NCBI RefSeq assembly: GCF_024710845.1 | Contig: NZ_JANJTZ010000045.1 | Coordinates: 1 to 64,000, forward strand | Direction: 5' to 3' | DNA length: 64,000 nt | DNA from: Mesorhizobium sp. | GTDB taxonomy: Bacteria > Pseudomonadota > Alphaproteobacteria > Rhizobiales > Rhizobiaceae | Shown here: piece by piece, positions 56,611-63,932 of the stretch | Position numbering within the stretch: position 1 is the first letter of the stretch | How the letters are laid out: every line of letters begins with the position of its first letter | Notes under the pieces: model-generated | Seen by the model: the letters and a program-made list of their open reading frames with translations, nothing else | Databases searched by the model: none | Told to the model about the DNA's origin: nothing | Made by a program: the position numbers and the translations under genes

Positions 56611-57159
56611 CTAGCCTGCGAATCCGCCCTGATCGAGAAAAGCCTGCTCCTGCGGCGTCGTTTCGCGTCCGAGCGAGCGGTTGCGGTGAGGAAAGCGCCC
56701 GAATGCCTTGATGATGTCGAGGTGGATGATCGCGTATTCCAGCGCCTCTCCGCCGAGCGGCGTGAACAGCTCGACCGACCTCTCCTGGTCGCCGAGGTCT
56801 TCGGAATGCTCGAAGGGCAGGTAGATGAAGGGCCGAAGCTCGTCGTCGACGCCCTTGTCGAGGCCCATGGCCACCGCATGTCTCGCGTGGTGACGCGCCA
56901 GCGGATCGGTCGCAAACATGTGCGCCGTTCCCCGGAAGCAGTTGCGCGGAAACTGGTCGAGCAGGATCATCAGGGCAAGCGCGCCGTCCGGCGACGCGTT
57001 CCAGTGGTCCAGTTCGCGCCGCGCGGCGCGCCAATGCTGATCCTGGTGCGCGGCGCGGAATGCATCGTCGAAGCCGTCGTCCTTGCGGAACCATGCGTCG
57101 GGACCGGCCGCGCGCCAGAAGCCGGTGATAATCGATATGTCCCTTTCATCGCCCGTCAT
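56611..57159 (-). CDS. DUF924 family protein
   Basis: [49 protein letters not shown]. Confidence 0.9.
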
Positions 57160-59015
57160 CGGCTCGCTCCTCCGGATTCCTTCGATTCGGCCCGCAGAAG
57201 GTCTTCGGCTTCCTTGTTGAGCGCCTTGCCGGCGCGTTTGGGCGTGGCGACCGGGGCGGGGATCGGCTGGTTGCCCTTGAACAGATTGCTGCCGGCATAG
57301 ATATCGCCGGCGAGCTGCAGCGTGAAGCGCTCCTGGTCCCGCCTGCGGACTTCCTCGACCGTTTCGGTCGCTTCCGCGTAGGGCACGCCGATGAACTGCA
57401 TCACTTCGCTGGAGAAGGTCAGCGCCGATTCGAACGTCTCACGCAGCTGGAATTCCACTCCCGCATGAACGAGCTTCAGCGCGGCGCCGCGGTCGAACGC
57501 GCGCGCGAAGACCGGAACCATCGGGAAATTCGCCTTCAAATGTTCGGCGATCAGTACGGCCGCGTCGGCCTTGTCGACGCAGATCAGCACCGCCTGCGCC
57601 TTGTCCGCGCCGGCGGCGTGAAGGATGTCGAGCCTGGTGCCGTCGCCGTAGTAGACCTTGAAGCCGAAGCGGCCGGCCACCTGGATCATCTCGACGTCGT
57701 TGTCGATGATCGATACGTCGACGCCGCGCAGGATGAGAGGTTGGCTGACGATCTGGCCGAAACGGCCAAAGCCGATGATCAGGATGTTGCCGCTCAGCCC
57801 GTCGACGACGTCGATGCCGTCGAGAGACTGCTCCTCGGGCGGCAGCAGGCGCGGAAGCAGCATGATCAGGAGAGGAGTCAACGCCATCGAGATGATGATC
57901 GTCGCCGTCAGCGCCGCGTTCATGTCGGCGGTGAAGATGCCGGCGGCGGTGGCGGCCGCGTAGAGCACAAAGGCGAATTCGCCGCCCTGTGCCATGTAGA
58001 TGGCGCGCATCAAAGCTTCCCGGTGCGACGATTTGAAGAAGCGGGCGACCGTGTAGATGCCGATCGATTTCAGCACCATGTAGCCGACGACGCCGGTCGC
58101 GATGAGCTGCCATTCGCGCGATACCACGCCAAGGTCGAGCGACATGCCGACGCCCATGAAGAACAGGCCGAGCAGGATGCCGCGGAAGGGCTCGATGTCC
58201 GCCTCGAGCTGGTGGCGGAAGGTCGATTCGGACAGGAGCACGCCGGCGAGGAACGCGCCCATCGCCATCGACAGACCTCCCATGTCCATCGCCAGCGCCG
58301 CGCCGAAGACGACCAGCAGCGCCGCCGCCGTCATCACCTCGCGTGCATGGGCGGCCGCCAGAAGCTGGAACATCGGGTTGAGCAGATAGCGCCCGGCGAT
58401 CACGAGGCCGCCGAGTGCCACGAGCGCGACGCCGATCGTGACCCACAGCGAACCGCCGTCGTCCTGGCCGGAACTCGGGGCGAGGAAGGCCACGATCGCC
58501 AGCAGCGGCACGATGGCGAGATCTTCCAGAAGCAGAATCGAGACCATCCGCTGGCCGCCGGGCGTCGCCATCTCGCCTTTCTCCTCCAGCAATTGCATGA
58601 CGATGGCGGTGGAGGTGAGCACGAAGCCCATGCCGGCGACGAAGGACTGAACGATCGGGAAACCGATCGCCATGCCGAACAGCATCAGGAGCAGGCCGCA
58701 GACGGCGACCTGCGCGGCGCCGAGGCCGAAAATGTCGCCCCGCAGTCCCCACAGCCGCGACGGCTGCATTTCGAGGCCGATGATGAAGAGGAACATGACG
58801 ACGCCGAGCTCGGCGACGTGGAGGATCGCGCCCGGCTCGGTGAAGAGCTGCAGGCCCCAGGGGCCGATGGCGAGGCCGGCGGCGAGATAGCCGAGGACCG
58901 ATCCGAGCCCCAGCCGCTTGAAGATCGGCACGGCGAGCACGCCCGCGCCGAGGAGCGACACGACGGAGATGAGTTCGCTCGCGAGCGATGCATGACCTGC
59001 CGATTCTGCCGCCAT
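57156..59015 (-). CDS. monovalent cation:proton antiporter-2 (KefB/KefC-like) family protein
   Basis: Na+/H+ exchanger domain plus TrkA-N domain ILIIGFGRFGQIVSQPLILRGVDVSIIDND. Confidence 0.93.
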   Translation of the reverse strand: MAAESAGHASLASELISVVSLLGAGVLAVPIFKRLGLGSVLGYLAAGLAIGPWGLQLFTEPGAILHVAELGVVMFLFIIGLEMQPSRLWGLRGDIFGLGAAQVAVCGLLLMLFGMAIGFPIVQSFVAGMGFVLTSTAIVMQLLEEKGEMATPGGQRMVSILLLEDLAIVPLLAIVAFLAPSSGQDDGGSLWVTIGVALVALGGLVIAGRYLLNPMFQLLAAAHAREVMTAAALLVVFGAALAMDMGGLSMAMGAFLAGVLLSESTFRHQLEADIEPFRGILLGLFFMGVGMSLDLGVVSREWQLIATGVVGYMVLKSIGIYTVARFFKSSHREALMRAIYMAQGGEFAFVLYAAATAAGIFTADMNAALTATIIISMALTPLLIMLLPRLLPPEEQSLDGIDVVDGLSGNILIIGFGRFGQIVSQPLILRGVDVSIIDNDVEMIQVAGRFGFKVYYGDGTRLDILHAAGADKAQAVLICVDKADAAVLIAEHLKANFPMVPVFARAFDRGAALKLVHAGVEFQLRETFESALTFSSEVMQFIGVPYAEATETVEEVRRRDQERFTLQLAGDIYAGSNLFKGNQPIPAPVATPKRAGKALNKEAEDLLRAESKESGGASR

Positions 59016-59355
59016 TCTCGTTCCCCGTCCGGTTGATCCACTTGTGCCGTTCGACTCTGCGGAGTGTGGGCGGGAGGGTCAAGCCGCCCGAGCGGGGAGG
59101 GGGCAGCGCGGTGACGTCCGATGTCGGACTCGCCTTGAAGGATCCGGTTTCCGGCGCCGAGCGCACGTCCGAAGATGGGCTTGCGGGAGTCGACACGGAA
59201 TCGCCGCGACAGTCGTCGACTGATCCGGTCACGAGAAATCGGTTCGAGGGAGAATGGTGCCCAGTCTCGGATTAAGCAAGAAGCCTTCTACTGCATTGAT
59301 TCATATGAGAAATTCGTCGCCCCGTCCAGCCAATGTTACACGGTCCTGTTACACG

Positions 59356-59561
59356 TTCGGCCGATGCGCGGAATTAGGTGGGGTTATGATACAAGCCAAA
59401 CGTGAGAAGCCTTCATTCAGACCTACCAGCAGCCCGTCCTGGAGCAGTTCCGCGAGGCCTGCATGATGATGGTTGGACCGGACCACGATTGGCCTGCGCT
59501 GCCGCCTATGGGGGCGCTGGACATCGAGCAAATCAGGCAGTCCGATTACTTTTTTGCCTGA
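59356..59561 (+). pseudogene. C-terminal remnant of T7-type single-subunit DNA-directed RNA polymerase
   Basis: FGRCAELGGVMIQAKRE (59356-59406), then a 2-nt shift, then AFIQTYQQPVLEQFREACMMMVGPDHDWPALPPMGALDIEQIRQSDYFFA*. Co-linear with recalled T7 gp1 C-terminus FGTIPADAANLFKAVRETMVDTYESCDVLADF...MPALPAKGNLNLRDILESDFAFA. Confidence 0.8.
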
Positions 59562-59589
59562 CACTACGCATCCGCACATAATTAGGCAG

Positions 59590-59615
59590 CTCCTTGATAA
59601 AGAGAACGCTAGATC
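59590..59615 (+). repeat. CTCCTTGATRAGAG motif, copy 1
   Basis: CTCCTTGATAAAGAGAACGCTAGATC. Confidence 0.6.
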
Positions 59616-59736
59616 AGCACAGTAGACGTGGGCGACGGCCGCACCAACACTACGCAAACGCACAGTTTAAACTTGTGGCGTCACGACCCGTCATGTGCAT
59701 AATCGGGAGCGCAACGCAGATATAGGAGCTTGCGCG

Positions 59737-59949
59737 ATGCCCAACACTACCCTCACGATCCCCGCCACCCCGACTACTGCCGAGGAGGCCATCGCCTTCG
59801 CGCTCGACTACCTGGAGCCGTTCGAGGTGGCCGACTTCCTGTCCGACTGGAGAGCCGCAAGGAGCCTTTCGGGATGGTCGGCCGGCGTCGCGGAAGAGAT
59901 GGCGGCGAGCGGCGGCACGTGGACGAAAGGCCCACGGCCTCACGCATGA
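59737..59949 (+). CDS. small phage hypothetical protein (70 aa)
   Basis: MPNTTLTIPATPTTAEEAIAFALDYLEPFEVADFLSDWRAARSLSGWSAGVAEEMAASGGTWTKGPRPHA; aggag upstream. Confidence 0.5.
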   Translation: MPNTTLTIPATPTTAEEAIAFALDYLEPFEVADFLSDWRAARSLSGWSAGVAEEMAASGGTWTKGPRPHA

Positions 59950-60021: not shown

Positions 60022-60035
60022 AATTAATTCACACC
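60022..60035 (+). promoter_or_regulatory. candidate phage-RNAP promoter, copy 1
   Basis: AATTAATTCACACC. Confidence 0.4.
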
Positions 60036-60060
60036 TCCTTGATGAGAGAACGGCCCGATC
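60035..60060 (+). repeat. CTCCTTGATRAGAG motif, copy 2
   Basis: CTCCTTGATGAGAGAACGGCCCGATC. Confidence 0.6.
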
Positions 60061-60072
60061 CGCAATAGGCGT

Positions 60073-60099
60073 CTCCTTGATAAGAGCGAACGCGAGACC
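60073..60099 (+). repeat. CTCCTTGATRAGAG motif, copy 3
   Basis: CTCCTTGATAAGAGCGAACGCGAGACC. Confidence 0.6.
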
Positions 60100-60141: not shown

Positions 60142-60374
60142 CTCGCCCCTCAGATAGGATCAGTGAGGCATTCCAGTCCGCCTCCTCTCCAGCCGCAAGC
60201 CCATACCAAACGCCAAACCCCCGCCGCCACCTAGGCGCGAGGCATAACGCCCGCACATAGGGCCACCCCCACATCGTCAACCCGAAAAGGAGCGCCACCC
60301 GCCGTGGAACTCATCGACACCCCATGCCTGTCCGCAGGCTCCTCCGCCCTCCGGTCAAACTGGAGCCACACCCC

Positions 60375-61917
60375 ATGACCCGTGTCCCAGTCCGTGACAT
60401 CTCGCCCCCTTCGCAAATCCGGGGAGTGTCCGCCCCAGTCAACACCTACGTCCGTCCGCCCGATCCGGCACCATCGCCCCTGCATGACATCGCCGCTGGC
60501 CTCGCCAAGCTTGACGCAGGACTGTCCGCCTTCCTCCAGAAACGGCAAGCCGAATACGCAGAGGCCGACAAGCAGCGGGCCATCCGGGACGCATACGGTG
60601 GCAATGCAGCGGGCTTTGATGAGGGCACCCGGCGAGGCTTGATCCCCTTCGGAGAGTCGCCCTCCTACATGGAGTGGTATCGCAAGACGCAAGGCGACGT
60701 GCAGGGCCGCAAGCTCCGGGACCAGTTCGCCGTCCGCTATCAGACATGGGAAGGGCGGACCTCCGGCGACCCCGCCCGCTTCCAGAAGTTCGTCCAGGAA
60801 TTCCTCGCAGAGACGGTCGGAGAGACGACCGACCCCCACGTGCTAGCGGGCCTCAATCCGCATATCGAGCGGATGCATGACGAGGCCTACGGCACCTTCG
60901 ATAAGGACCGTTCCGCCGCCATCAAGCGCGACGGCATCAGCCTCTCCGGGTCCCGCATCACGGACACCATAGAGCGGGCCGAGGAGGATGCTCGGGCAGG
61001 CGGGCAGGATGTCAACAGGGACGCCCTCTGGGAAGTCAATCCTCCTGGAGCGGGCGGAGGCGACCAAGCGCATCAACCCAGGCGACTACGACCCGATGAT
61101 GGTGGACTCGATCATCCTCCAGGCAGAGGAGTCGATGGACGAGGACATTCTCGACCTCCTCGACCGCAAGCTGCCAGGCTCCGAGTTCCCCCTCTCGCAC
61201 GACCCCGCAGTCCGCGAGAAGAAGCTGAAGTCCATCGACCGCATCCAATCCGGCCTAGCGTCAGCAGCGACCACAAAGGCAGCAGCCGAGGAGAAGGCCG
61301 ACAAGCAGCGGCACAACGGCATCGTCGCGGATGTCTACCGGCAACTCTCGGTGGACCCGAACTACGTGGTGCCCGAGGAGACCCTCACCCAGATCAGCCG
61401 CCGAGACCCCGACTTCAGGGGCAAGCTCAAGTCCATCCGGGAGGGCTTCGTGAGTGGCGTGGAAGACCCTGACGCCATCGCTCTCCTCATGGCCGACATC
61501 CACGAGGGGGCGAGCGACCAGTTCGTCCTGGAGAAGTTCCGCCAGGGCGTCATCAAGGACCCCACCACGCTCACCAAGGCACTCGACCGGGTGAAGGCCG
61601 TGGAGAACGCCAGCAAGCCGGGAGGCATCCTCGACTCCGCCTCCTACAAGGACACCATCAAGCGGATCACCAACGCGACCGGGATGGAGGAGGAGAGCGG
61701 GCTAAGCTTCCTGGACGGCGTGAGGGGGATAACTGAGGACGGCATACGCGCCAACCACGACTACCGGACGATGCTCCTGGAGTGGGAGGCGGCCAACCCG
61801 AAGGCCACGCTGATCGAGCGTGAGAAGGCGTCCTATGACATCGGGAAGAAGATCCTTTCCCGCATCACCCCCACCCCTTACGAGCGCCAGAAGGGCACCT
61901 ACAAGCCCCTCCAGTAG
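60375..61917 (+). pseudogene. phage internal-virion-like protein, split by a frameshift near 61030-61050
   Basis: Frame 0 MTRVPVRDISPPSQIRG...LHDIAAGLAKLDAGLSAFLQKRQAEYAEADKQRAIRDAYGGNAAGFDEGTRRGLIPFGESPSYMEWYRKTQGDVQGRKL...DVNRDALWE, then frame +1 SILLERAEATKRINPGDYDPMMVDSIILQ...YERQKGTYKPLQ*. Confidence 0.5.
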
Positions 61918-62036
61918 GCGCAGTCTGGCCGCATACGGCGCGGGGAGGAGGATCATTCTTCCCCTGCCTTCCGTTGGACCTGGAGCAGCCCGCCCCAGGC
62001 CGTCACCATCATCACCACCCAAAAGGAGATACGCGC

Positions 62037-62636
62037 ATGGACATCGTGCCGTCTGCATTCGGCTTTGCGCCGGAAGTCATCAACTCACCTGACACCATCA
62101 CCGCCTATGTTTCAGGCTTCCACACATACACGGGGCGGGCCATCGCGTCCCCCAACCCCCATGACGCAGACTTTCCGCCCGCTAGCTTTGGCGTCGTCTA
62201 CGCTGGCCAAGGTGGCGGGGGCATGTTGTGGGGCTACGGTTCCGCCAGCTATGCCGCCCCGATGCCTGCATACGGTGTCCTGGAGATGCTGAAAGTGGCA
62301 CCTCCCGGCGTTCGGCTGGTAGTCCACGCGGCTAGGCCTCTCTGGGAATACGTGGCACCTGATGGGCACGTCCGCTACGCTATGCGGAATGGCGGGAGGG
62401 GTAGGACGGGAAGGCGAATGCCGGGATATCAAGCACTCGCTGCCGCCGCCGTCGCATTGGACGAAGGCCGGTGGAGCTATGTCCTTATCCATAAGGCCAA
62501 CAAGTCAGTGCCCTTCATGTCGGCAGCGAACCTAGCCGTGACGCAAGCCGTATGGGAGGGCAGGGCGCACCTGGAGCGGCATCCGACAGCCGCGAGGGAT
62601 GCTGGCCTCAACACGGTCTTCCTGACGGGGCCGTGA
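62037..62636 (+). CDS. hypothetical phage protein, possible degenerate RNase H fold
   Basis: MDIVPSAFGFAPEVINSPDTITAYVSGFHTYTGRAIASP...ASFGVVYAGQGGGGMLWGYGSASYAAPMPAYGVLEMLK...VRLVVHAARPLWEYV...WSYVLIHKANKSVPFMSAANLAVTQAVW; RBS aaggag before ATG. Confidence 0.55.
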   Translation: MDIVPSAFGFAPEVINSPDTITAYVSGFHTYTGRAIASPNPHDADFPPASFGVVYAGQGGGGMLWGYGSASYAAPMPAYGVLEMLKVAPPGVRLVVHAARPLWEYVAPDGHVRYAMRNGGRGRTGRRMPGYQALAAAAVALDEGRWSYVLIHKANKSVPFMSAANLAVTQAVWEGRAHLERHPTAARDAGLNTVFLTGP

Positions 62637-62640
62637 CGCC

Positions 62641-63932
62641 ATGATGATTGCCGACGACCTGGAGCAGGAGAGGGCGGGAGGACTGCCCCGCCTCCACATC
62701 CACCACGATCACCACCTCGCCGTCGCCAGCATTCCCCTATGCGCCCTCCTGGACGCCATCTTTGCTGAGACGGAGGCGGGCCGCCCTACGCCGCGGTCCG
62801 GAAAGAGGCCACGAGAGGACGCCGCAAGGAGGCGTAAGGAGGCCGTCGGCAACCTCCTCGCCAATCTCGCGCTCCTCCCACTGGACGAGCCTGATGCCCG
62901 CCTTGTGGTGTCCCTGGAGCATCCCACAAAGTCGCGCTATCGCCGCCATGATGCCCCGCCGCAAGTCTTTACGGATGCGGTTAGGGGCCTTGAGGCGGCG
63001 GGCTTGGTCTCGTGCATCCGAGGGAACGTCCGGGCGGGGAGCGGACGACCATCGCGCCGCGCGGCTGGCTTAGGGACCGCCTCCAGGGGATGGGCCTGGA
63101 GCCGGGCGACATCGCACGGGAGCCGGGAGCAGAGACCATCATCCTTCGGGAGGGCAGGGGATGGAAGCGCCCCAAGGTGTTGCGGGACTATGACGACACC
63201 TCCGAAACCAACACCATGCGGCGCGACCTGGAGACCATCAACGAGGCGCTTTCGGAGGCGGACATAAGGCTGGACGGCAAGCGCCGACACGACTGCCGTA
63301 TGGTGCGGATATTCCAGGTGGAGCGCGGGGAGCCGACGCACTTCAATGCGCAAGGCCGTCTGTATCGCGGCTTCTGGCAGAACCTGGAGCGGGGCAAGCG
63401 GCACCTCATCACCATCGACGGGGAGCCTGTTGCTGACCTCGATTACCGCTCCATGTTCCTGTCCCTCGCCTACGGGCTCCAGTGCGTCCCGATGCCACCT
63501 GGAGACCCTTATGCCGTGCCAGGGCTGGAGGGACATCGGGAGGGCGTGAAGCGGGCCGTCTCTGCCATGTTCTCCCGCAGCACTCCGCTATCGGACCTTC
63601 CCGTGGGTCTGGAGGGGTTGCTTCCGGCAGGATGGACCGGGAGGTTGCTCCAGGACGCGATTGCCTCCAGGCACCCCGCCATCGCGCCGTTGCTTTGCAC
63701 GAACCTGGGGCCGCGCCTGACGCGCTTGGAGAGCGACATCATGGTCGAGGTGCTGCTTCGGCTCTTGGAGCGGGGCATCGTCGCGTTGCCGTGCCATGAC
63801 GGGCTTCTGGTAGCCGAGCGCTGGAAGGAGGCGGCCCTGGAGACGATGCGAACGGTCCCGCGCGAGGCTGGAGGCATGGAGATCGGCGTTGATGAAAAAG
63901 CGTTGTGGAATAACGACTTAGAGGCCGCTTGA
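62641..63932 (+). pseudogene. superfamily-A-like (TV-Pol-like) polymerase, split by a frameshift near 63030-63045
   Basis: N-part MMIADDLEQERAGG...FTDAVRGLEAAGLVSCIRGNVRAG; C-part GERTTIAPRGWLRDRL...FNAQGRLYRGFWQNLERGKRHLITIDGEPVADLDYRSMFLSLAYGL (motif A-like), REGVKRAVSAM (motif B-like), IVALPCHDGLLVAE (motif C-like HD). Confidence 0.55.

Follow-up and report, generated by a model that had tools for sequence, protein, structure and literature searches.

A T7-type RNA polymerase tail in a tRNA-Phe-integrated element of Mesorhizobium, possibly a decayed satellite of temperate T7-like phages

Does the end of a phage RNA polymerase (RNAP) gene, lying without its body beside a chromosomal tRNA site of Mesorhizobium, mark a worn-out T7-like prophage or a part of some other mobile element? 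The window analysed here is a stretch of 64,000 nucleotides, bases 1–64000 of the 65932-base contig C47 (genome G000), and its features are collected in Table 1. A first-pass annotation had recognized the C-terminus of a T7-type RNAP, and profile searches bear this out: the tail frame (EAFIQTYQQPVLEQF...SDYFFA*, residue-coding part 59406–59558) matches PF00940 in a Pfam search of the window ORFs (E = 6.8e-5, profile positions 425–448 of 448) as well as PHROG 414 (E = 5.5e-8, positions 766–816 of 816), and contains the T7-type C-terminal region with its aromatic FFA end. Aligned with the RNAP tail of the IMG/VR phage G681 it scores 148, where 2000 shuffles reach at most 27, and its closest relatives are full-length RNAPs of T7-like prophages from the same bacterial family (G010, 55%; G136, 49%). 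The catalytic palm and specificity loop are absent, and the PHROG 414 search of the genome yields positions 766–816 only, with no further convincing RNAP piece anywhere; a second match, on contig C62, is weak (E = 0.004), contains internal stops and is regarded as chance. PHROG 414 did detect the tail at genome scale, while a PF00940 search over the same genome returned no match, presumably owing to the shortness of the stretch.

The same annotation had joined the tail by a frameshift to the frame directly upstream, FGRCAELGGVMIQAKR(E), and here only the downstream frame stands as RNAP. Against a profile of 13 RNAPs the upstream frame contributes 5.9 bits, a gain equalled by 70 out of 5000 random peptides of 16 residues, and the chance level for this score is about 0.04 when three frames are allowed; by this comparison its candidacy as RNAP is weak, and we set it aside. 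The HD..YG motif, present at the corresponding place in intact RNAPs, is missing from it. A TGA stop (59403–59405) lies immediately 5′ of the tail frame, and the two stretches therefore do not form a single open frame.

Table 1. Features of the window around the RNAP tail, in window coordinates.
Feature	Position	Strand	Remarks
Kef-type transporter gene, chromosomal flank	57156–59015	−	genus-wide synteny; function named by sequence reading
attL core, tRNA-Phe 3′ end (AATGGTGCCCAGTCTCGGATT)	59253–59273	−	direct repeat of G000:C58:3336–3356
Two TGTTACACG repeats, candidate integrase arm sites	59334–59355 (starts 59334, 59347)	+	putative function
Frame FGRCAELGGVMIQAKR(E), possible additional RNAP remnant	59356–59405	+	not convincing; +5.9 bits
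RNAP C-terminal tail, 51 residues and stop codon	59406–59561	+	profile and alignment matches
CACTACGCATCCGCACA motif immediately 3′ of RNAP stop	59562–59578	+	second copy 59648–59664
Promoter-like repeat 1 (AATTAGGCAGCTCCTTGATAAA)	59581–59602	+	
Small ORF	59737–59949	+	without family match
Promoter-like repeat 2 (AATTCACACCTCCTTGATGAGA)	60026–60047	+	
Promoter-like repeat 3 (AATAGGCGTCTCCTTGATAAGA)	60064–60085	+	3 of 22 mismatches to repeat behind G681 RNAP
Broken IVP1 gene, internal-virion/ejection type	60324–61917	+	overlapping frames 60324–61472 and 60973–61917
orf220	61974–62636	+	relative of ~200-aa gene adjoining polymerase-like gene in G220
PHROG 4756 polymerase-like gene, in two frames	62641–63932	+	E = 4e-29; break ~63024–63033

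The locus had also been taken as the boundary between the chromosome and a mobile element, which is confirmed and can be placed at the attL core. Over the transporter flank the DNA is 75–91% identical to that of six genus relatives, and the similarity stops by 59102 at the latest. Comparison with the empty site, as had been proposed, finds an intact tRNA-Phe following the transporter at the matching place in G252 and G196. The window keeps the 3′ end of this gene only, while an intact tRNA-Phe and the next chromosomal genes are found at C58:3338–3413 (attR), the 21-bp att core forming a direct repeat. A third copy of TGTTACACG at C58:3265, near attR, places this sequence inside both ends, and a tyrosine integrase of 590 aa begins 48 bp from attR. 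The att direct repeat, the TGTTACACG copies at both ends and the integrase together indicate, therefore, that an element occupies tRNA-Phe. It measures about 10 kb plus the gap between C47 and C58, which is located within a defence reverse transcriptase (RT_UG13a) that matches both contigs; the contig ends look like a putative IS5-type element. Integration that split the RNAP gene itself, with attP inside it, is rejected because the att site is upstream of RNAP in intact prophages and no N-terminal RNAP piece is present at attR. In two further genomes (G030 and G129) the transporter gene and tRNA-Phe are separated by about 1 kb of additional DNA, which points to repeated use of this site.

From attL the element runs through the RNAP tail, two CACTACG motifs, three AATT/AATA-N7-CCTTGAT repeats, the small ORF, the broken IVP1 gene, orf220, the frameshifted PHROG 4756 gene, a DNA invertase and the split reverse transcriptase to the integrase. 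The two IVP1 frames (48% and 42% to the T7-like prophage G136; 46% and 45% to G220, a sibling element described below) are together shorter than the roughly 800–1030 aa of their relatives. In T7-like prophages the counterpart, of 800–1030 aa, lies directly behind tail tubular B, which is the place of the T7 internal virion protein genes, and in the sibling elements IVP1 carries endolysin-like and M15 peptidase domains. The match of orf220 to the G220 gene extends over 77 residues (E = 5e-6), and the two parts of the polymerase-like gene (62692–63024 and 63033–63926) align to successive parts of the PHROG 4756 profile. The reverse transcriptase (DRT; C47:65214–65783 and G000:C58:99–1403) matches the PADLOC model with E = 3e-156 over residues 12–421, the remainder being on the other contig; it is probably broken by an insertion sequence and likely inactive in this genome. 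With frameshifts in both IVP1 and the polymerase-like gene and with the reverse transcriptase split, the element is decayed here. Among the window ORFs scanned, none belongs to the capsid, portal, tail tube or terminase families.

Within the bacterial order, 36 of 397 genomes carry the PHROG 4756 gene. Its family is widespread in integrative elements (for example the window gene and L107 13362–14828), and its conserved motifs, DGE...LD....F and P.HDG, are reminiscent of motifs A and C in polymerases of the A family. The protein has no match among solved structures, and a structure predicted from a two-row alignment (pLDDT 36) was unusable. Twenty neighbourhoods of the gene, cut at up to 20 kb without defined ends, contained no RNAP and no virion gene save IVP1 and IVP2, and the IVP genes are missing from most of these loci.

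The first-pass annotation proposed that a T7-like phage had inserted here and lost most of its RNAP, and considered integrated T7-like phages uncommon. The latter view does not hold: such phages are known and are not rare, examples being Pasto, HTVC019P and those of 78 Pseudomonas genomes (PMC10134795), and an RNAP match was found in nine other genomes among the 298 of the family. Temperate members carry the integrase near RNAP and use tRNA-Leu att sites (PMC10134795, PMC8776855; Pasto record). The proposal itself, in the form of an ordinary T7-like prophage at tRNA-Phe that lost the DNA from the attL arm to the RNAP 3′ end and then that up to IVP1, and whose other genes are later cargo, is the strongest competitor of the satellite reading favoured below; it has real points in its favour and strikes us nonetheless as unlikely. 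RNAP is the first gene inside att in T7-like prophages (167 bp from tRNA-Leu in G177), the order RNAP, tail tubular, IVP1 agrees with that of G010 and G136, and the window copy is visibly decaying. Moreover, a 1-kb remnant between tRNA-Leu repeats (G215:C1:1015137–1016185, L014) holds the first ~100 RNAP residues only, so that collapse of T7-like prophages does happen. N-terminal RNAP fragments near tRNA-Leu genes in G482 (L097) and G214 (L012) are possible remnants of a similar kind.

Against such simple decay stands first the integrase, which belongs with RNAP-free tRNA islands. The element resembles temperate T7-like prophages in having an integrase and a tRNA att site, but its integrase comes from a different family. 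At 16 loci of this family (searched in genome_contigs and viral_contigs), a tRNA gene directly adjoins the integrase in 11, tRNA-Phe in two of them, and neither RNAP nor other T7-like proteins were found at any; one locus has a PHROG 4756 gene and several have an invertase.

Second, a similar gene set recurs in other genera as long intact ORFs without capsid or terminase. An IVP1 search of the 298 family genomes recovered, besides prophages, three genomes of three other genera (G159, G190 and G220), none of which is among the RNAP matches of the survey of those genomes. Each holds an element bounded by direct repeats of a tRNA 3′ end: at tRNA-Leu in G159 (159903–173228, 13.3 kb, repeat of 75 bp), at tRNA-Ala in G190 (80705–101044, 20.3 kb, 18 bp) and at tRNA-Val in G220 (187967–203944, 16.0 kb, 23 bp). 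IVP1 is intact in G190 and G220 (959 and 985 aa), as is IVP2 (1271 and 1173 aa), a PHROG 6651 ‘internal virion protein’ (E = 1.9e-49 and 4.7e-47), and behind these lie a ~200-aa gene and a PHROG 4756 gene. In G159, IVP1 and the integrase (43%) are accompanied by an RNAP tail on its own (44% to that of the T7-like prophage G069 over 50 residues), so that the layout of RNAP tail plus IVP1 is seen again there; the tail is present in two of the four elements only. This exception apart, tblastn found no RNAP, terminase, portal, capsid, DNA polymerase or helicase in the 80–100 kb around the three sibling elements. Terminase, portal, capsid, tail, DNA polymerase, primase and exonuclease queries from phage S2B had no match there either, an absence of capsid genes that rests on queries from this single T7-like phage, by which unrelated capsids could be missed. 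A similar-looking gene of ~270 aa without family match occurs in G190 (85829–86641) and G220 (189837–190649); a SocA/Panacea antitoxin-like gene is present in G190 as well, and a winged-helix regulator in G220 close to the far att end of that element.

The ejection-type genes in RNAP-less loci are under purifying selection, with dN/dS between two such loci (G668 and G678a) of 0.39 (IVP1), 0.24 and 0.18. In the IVP1 tree, element and phage copies intermingle, with at least four label changes, and IVP genes have therefore moved between elements and phages more than once; this mixing is expected from repeated capture, and also from repeated decay of prophages.

The third observation that weighs against decay of an ordinary prophage is that the siblings have promoter-like repeats upstream of their IVP genes. 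In all four elements these follow the scheme AATT/AATA-N7-core. G220, G190 and G159 have arrays of three to six copies before the IVP genes, each element with its own core but often sharing the start AATTCCC, and these arrays score above all 30 shuffles, while the three copies of the window are marginal alone (score 7, with shuffles up to 7); repeat scores upstream of IVP or polymerase-like genes at six other loci are mostly not clearly over shuffles, and repeat clustering without masking was dominated by GC-rich coding DNA. One of the RNAP-less loci, G678a, has AATTCCCTTGTACTTGAAAAGGAGC ahead of IVP1. The repeats, putative promoters, resemble those found behind phage RNAP genes. In G069, TAATTCCCGCNGTCACGATAAAGGAGC follows the RNAP stop directly as two copies (26 of 27 identical) spaced 126 bp apart and is absent from the rest of the scanned stretch, G010 and G136 each have one repeat of the same class directly behind the stop, and in G233 a type of the repeat particular to it occurs six times in sense orientation, the first time behind RNAP. 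Phage G681 encodes RNAP, portal, capsid and terminase, together with an IVP1 65% identical to that of G220; two copies of AATAGGCGTGTTCTTGATAAAA with three differences between them lie 78 bp apart behind its RNAP stop. This 22-mer matches the window at 60064 with three mismatches (0 matches in 100 shuffles), and among 24 element neighbourhoods searched with up to six mismatches it was found only in G220 (two), in the window element (two) and in one antisense match. In T7 the region behind gene 1, with the promoter pair phi1.1A/phi1.1B, is the primary replication origin. The promoter-like repeats that stand in tandem just after the RNAP stop in G069 and G681, and the repeat behind the window tail, are alike in position; their cores are unlike those of T7, and a promoter or origin role here is putative.

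A motif resembling CACTACGCATCCGCACA is present at the same place in prophage G136, and a looser version in phage G681. About ten sense sites of a CTACGCATNNGCACA-like motif occur in the G136 prophage (~835–881 kb of C3), including one just behind RNAP. As a phage promoter the CTACGCA repeat was not retained, there being many sense copies around G136 and hardly any elsewhere, and it is kept here as a motif only.

Taken together, the island-type integrase, the recurring backbone of PHROG 4756 gene, orf200 and invertase, the intact and selected ejection genes, the repeats and the G159 tail fit better with dependence on T7-like phages than with prophage decay. The account of a T7-like phage that inserted and lost most of its RNAP is probably not simply true, since the integrase is that of RNAP-free tRNA islands and the siblings keep ejection-type genes and repeats only; the element is probably more than a worn T7-like prophage. 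On balance we favour the reading that the RNAP tail belongs to a decayed representative of a tRNA-integrated, RNAP-less family, most likely satellites of temperate T7-like phages. Intact relatives carry DNA-injection genes and promoter-like repeats, and polymerase, capsid and packaging genes were not detected in them, which suggests that they live off T7-like phages, and two satellite traits are present, namely a small att-bounded element with an integrase and an incomplete set of virion genes. On this reading the element would depend on a helper for its propagation and may be packaged by it. Several points count against the satellite reading: a T7-like RNAP is absent from this genome by the PHROG 414 search, the IVP1 tree is mixed, the repeat array of the window is marginal alone, the RNAP tail occurs in two of the four elements, and the absence of capsid genes rests on queries from one phage. 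Scans of IMG/VR yielded only G681 and one other contig, and those with the IVP1 piece and with the window PHROG 4756 gene alone gave no match.

More tentatively, we propose a new satellite family that parasitizes temperate T7-like phages, in which arrays of promoters for the helper RNAP would act as the trigger, possibly together with the helper's replication origin, hence the RNAP tail, and in which the element's own DNA-ejection proteins would refit helper particles. On the favoured satellite reading the element would be silent in the chromosome until a T7-like phage enters or is induced, whose RNAP might read the repeats as its own promoters and so switch on the ejection proteins and neighbouring genes; the repeats may perhaps also serve as a replication origin, as the T7 promoter pair behind gene 1 does. 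Capsid and packaging machinery of the helper would then carry the element. The RNAP tail would be a hitchhiker on the captured promoter/origin region, its last codons having come along because that region begins directly behind the RNAP stop.

The defence gene and the repeat arrays also invite two other explanations. The element might be a defence or cargo island with its own integrase, into which functionless T7-like debris was brought by recombination; the presence of RT_UG13a, the type I restriction and other cargo adjoining integrases of the same family, and the lack of IVP genes at most PHROG 4756 loci agree with this, but the long intact IVP ORFs under purifying selection and the repeats upstream of IVP genes in four of four elements do not, and we consider it improbable. 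Least probable, and very unlikely in our judgement, is an anti-phage trap in which the repeats serve to titrate or detect the RNAP of an invading T7-like phage and to switch on a cell-wall-cutting IVP1 as abortive infection. Repeat arrays without RNAP, the endolysin-like and M15 peptidase domains of IVP1 and the nearby defence gene would suit it, but such domains are normal in virion proteins, the internal virion protein IVP2 has no obvious abortive-infection role, and the integrase and att sites are like those of mobile satellites.

Should the satellite reading be true, it would offer a simple promoter-based model for helper sensing, it would account for stray RNAP ends and ejection genes in genomes as components of mobile elements instead of junk, and it would suggest that injection proteins can be swapped to the benefit of a satellite. 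With temperate T7-like phages (Autographiviridae: Rhizobium phage Pasto, Caulobacter phage S2B, HTVC019P, P-SSP7) the element has in common the RNAP tail, repeats behind the RNAP stop, internal-virion genes, a tyrosine integrase and a tRNA att site; it differs from them in having an integrase of another family and no RNAP body, DNA polymerase, capsid, portal, tail tube or terminase, and the Pasto IVPs gave no BLASTP match. Among open-licence papers we found no satellites of T7-like phages that combine a phage-RNAP promoter switch with ejection proteins. Ejection-type proteins and promoter repeats of phage-RNAP type are likewise not reported for known satellite families in the accessible parts of two papers (PMC11389934, PMC10803314), in which respect the element, whose helper dependence is putative, is unlike them. 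According to the same parts of these papers, P4-like satellites, PICI, cfPICI, PLE, PICMI, VEIME and tycheposons are typically 6–18 kb in size, integrated, with few or no virion genes and often with defence cargo, and in small size, integration, paucity of virion genes and defence cargo the tRNA-Phe element resembles them.
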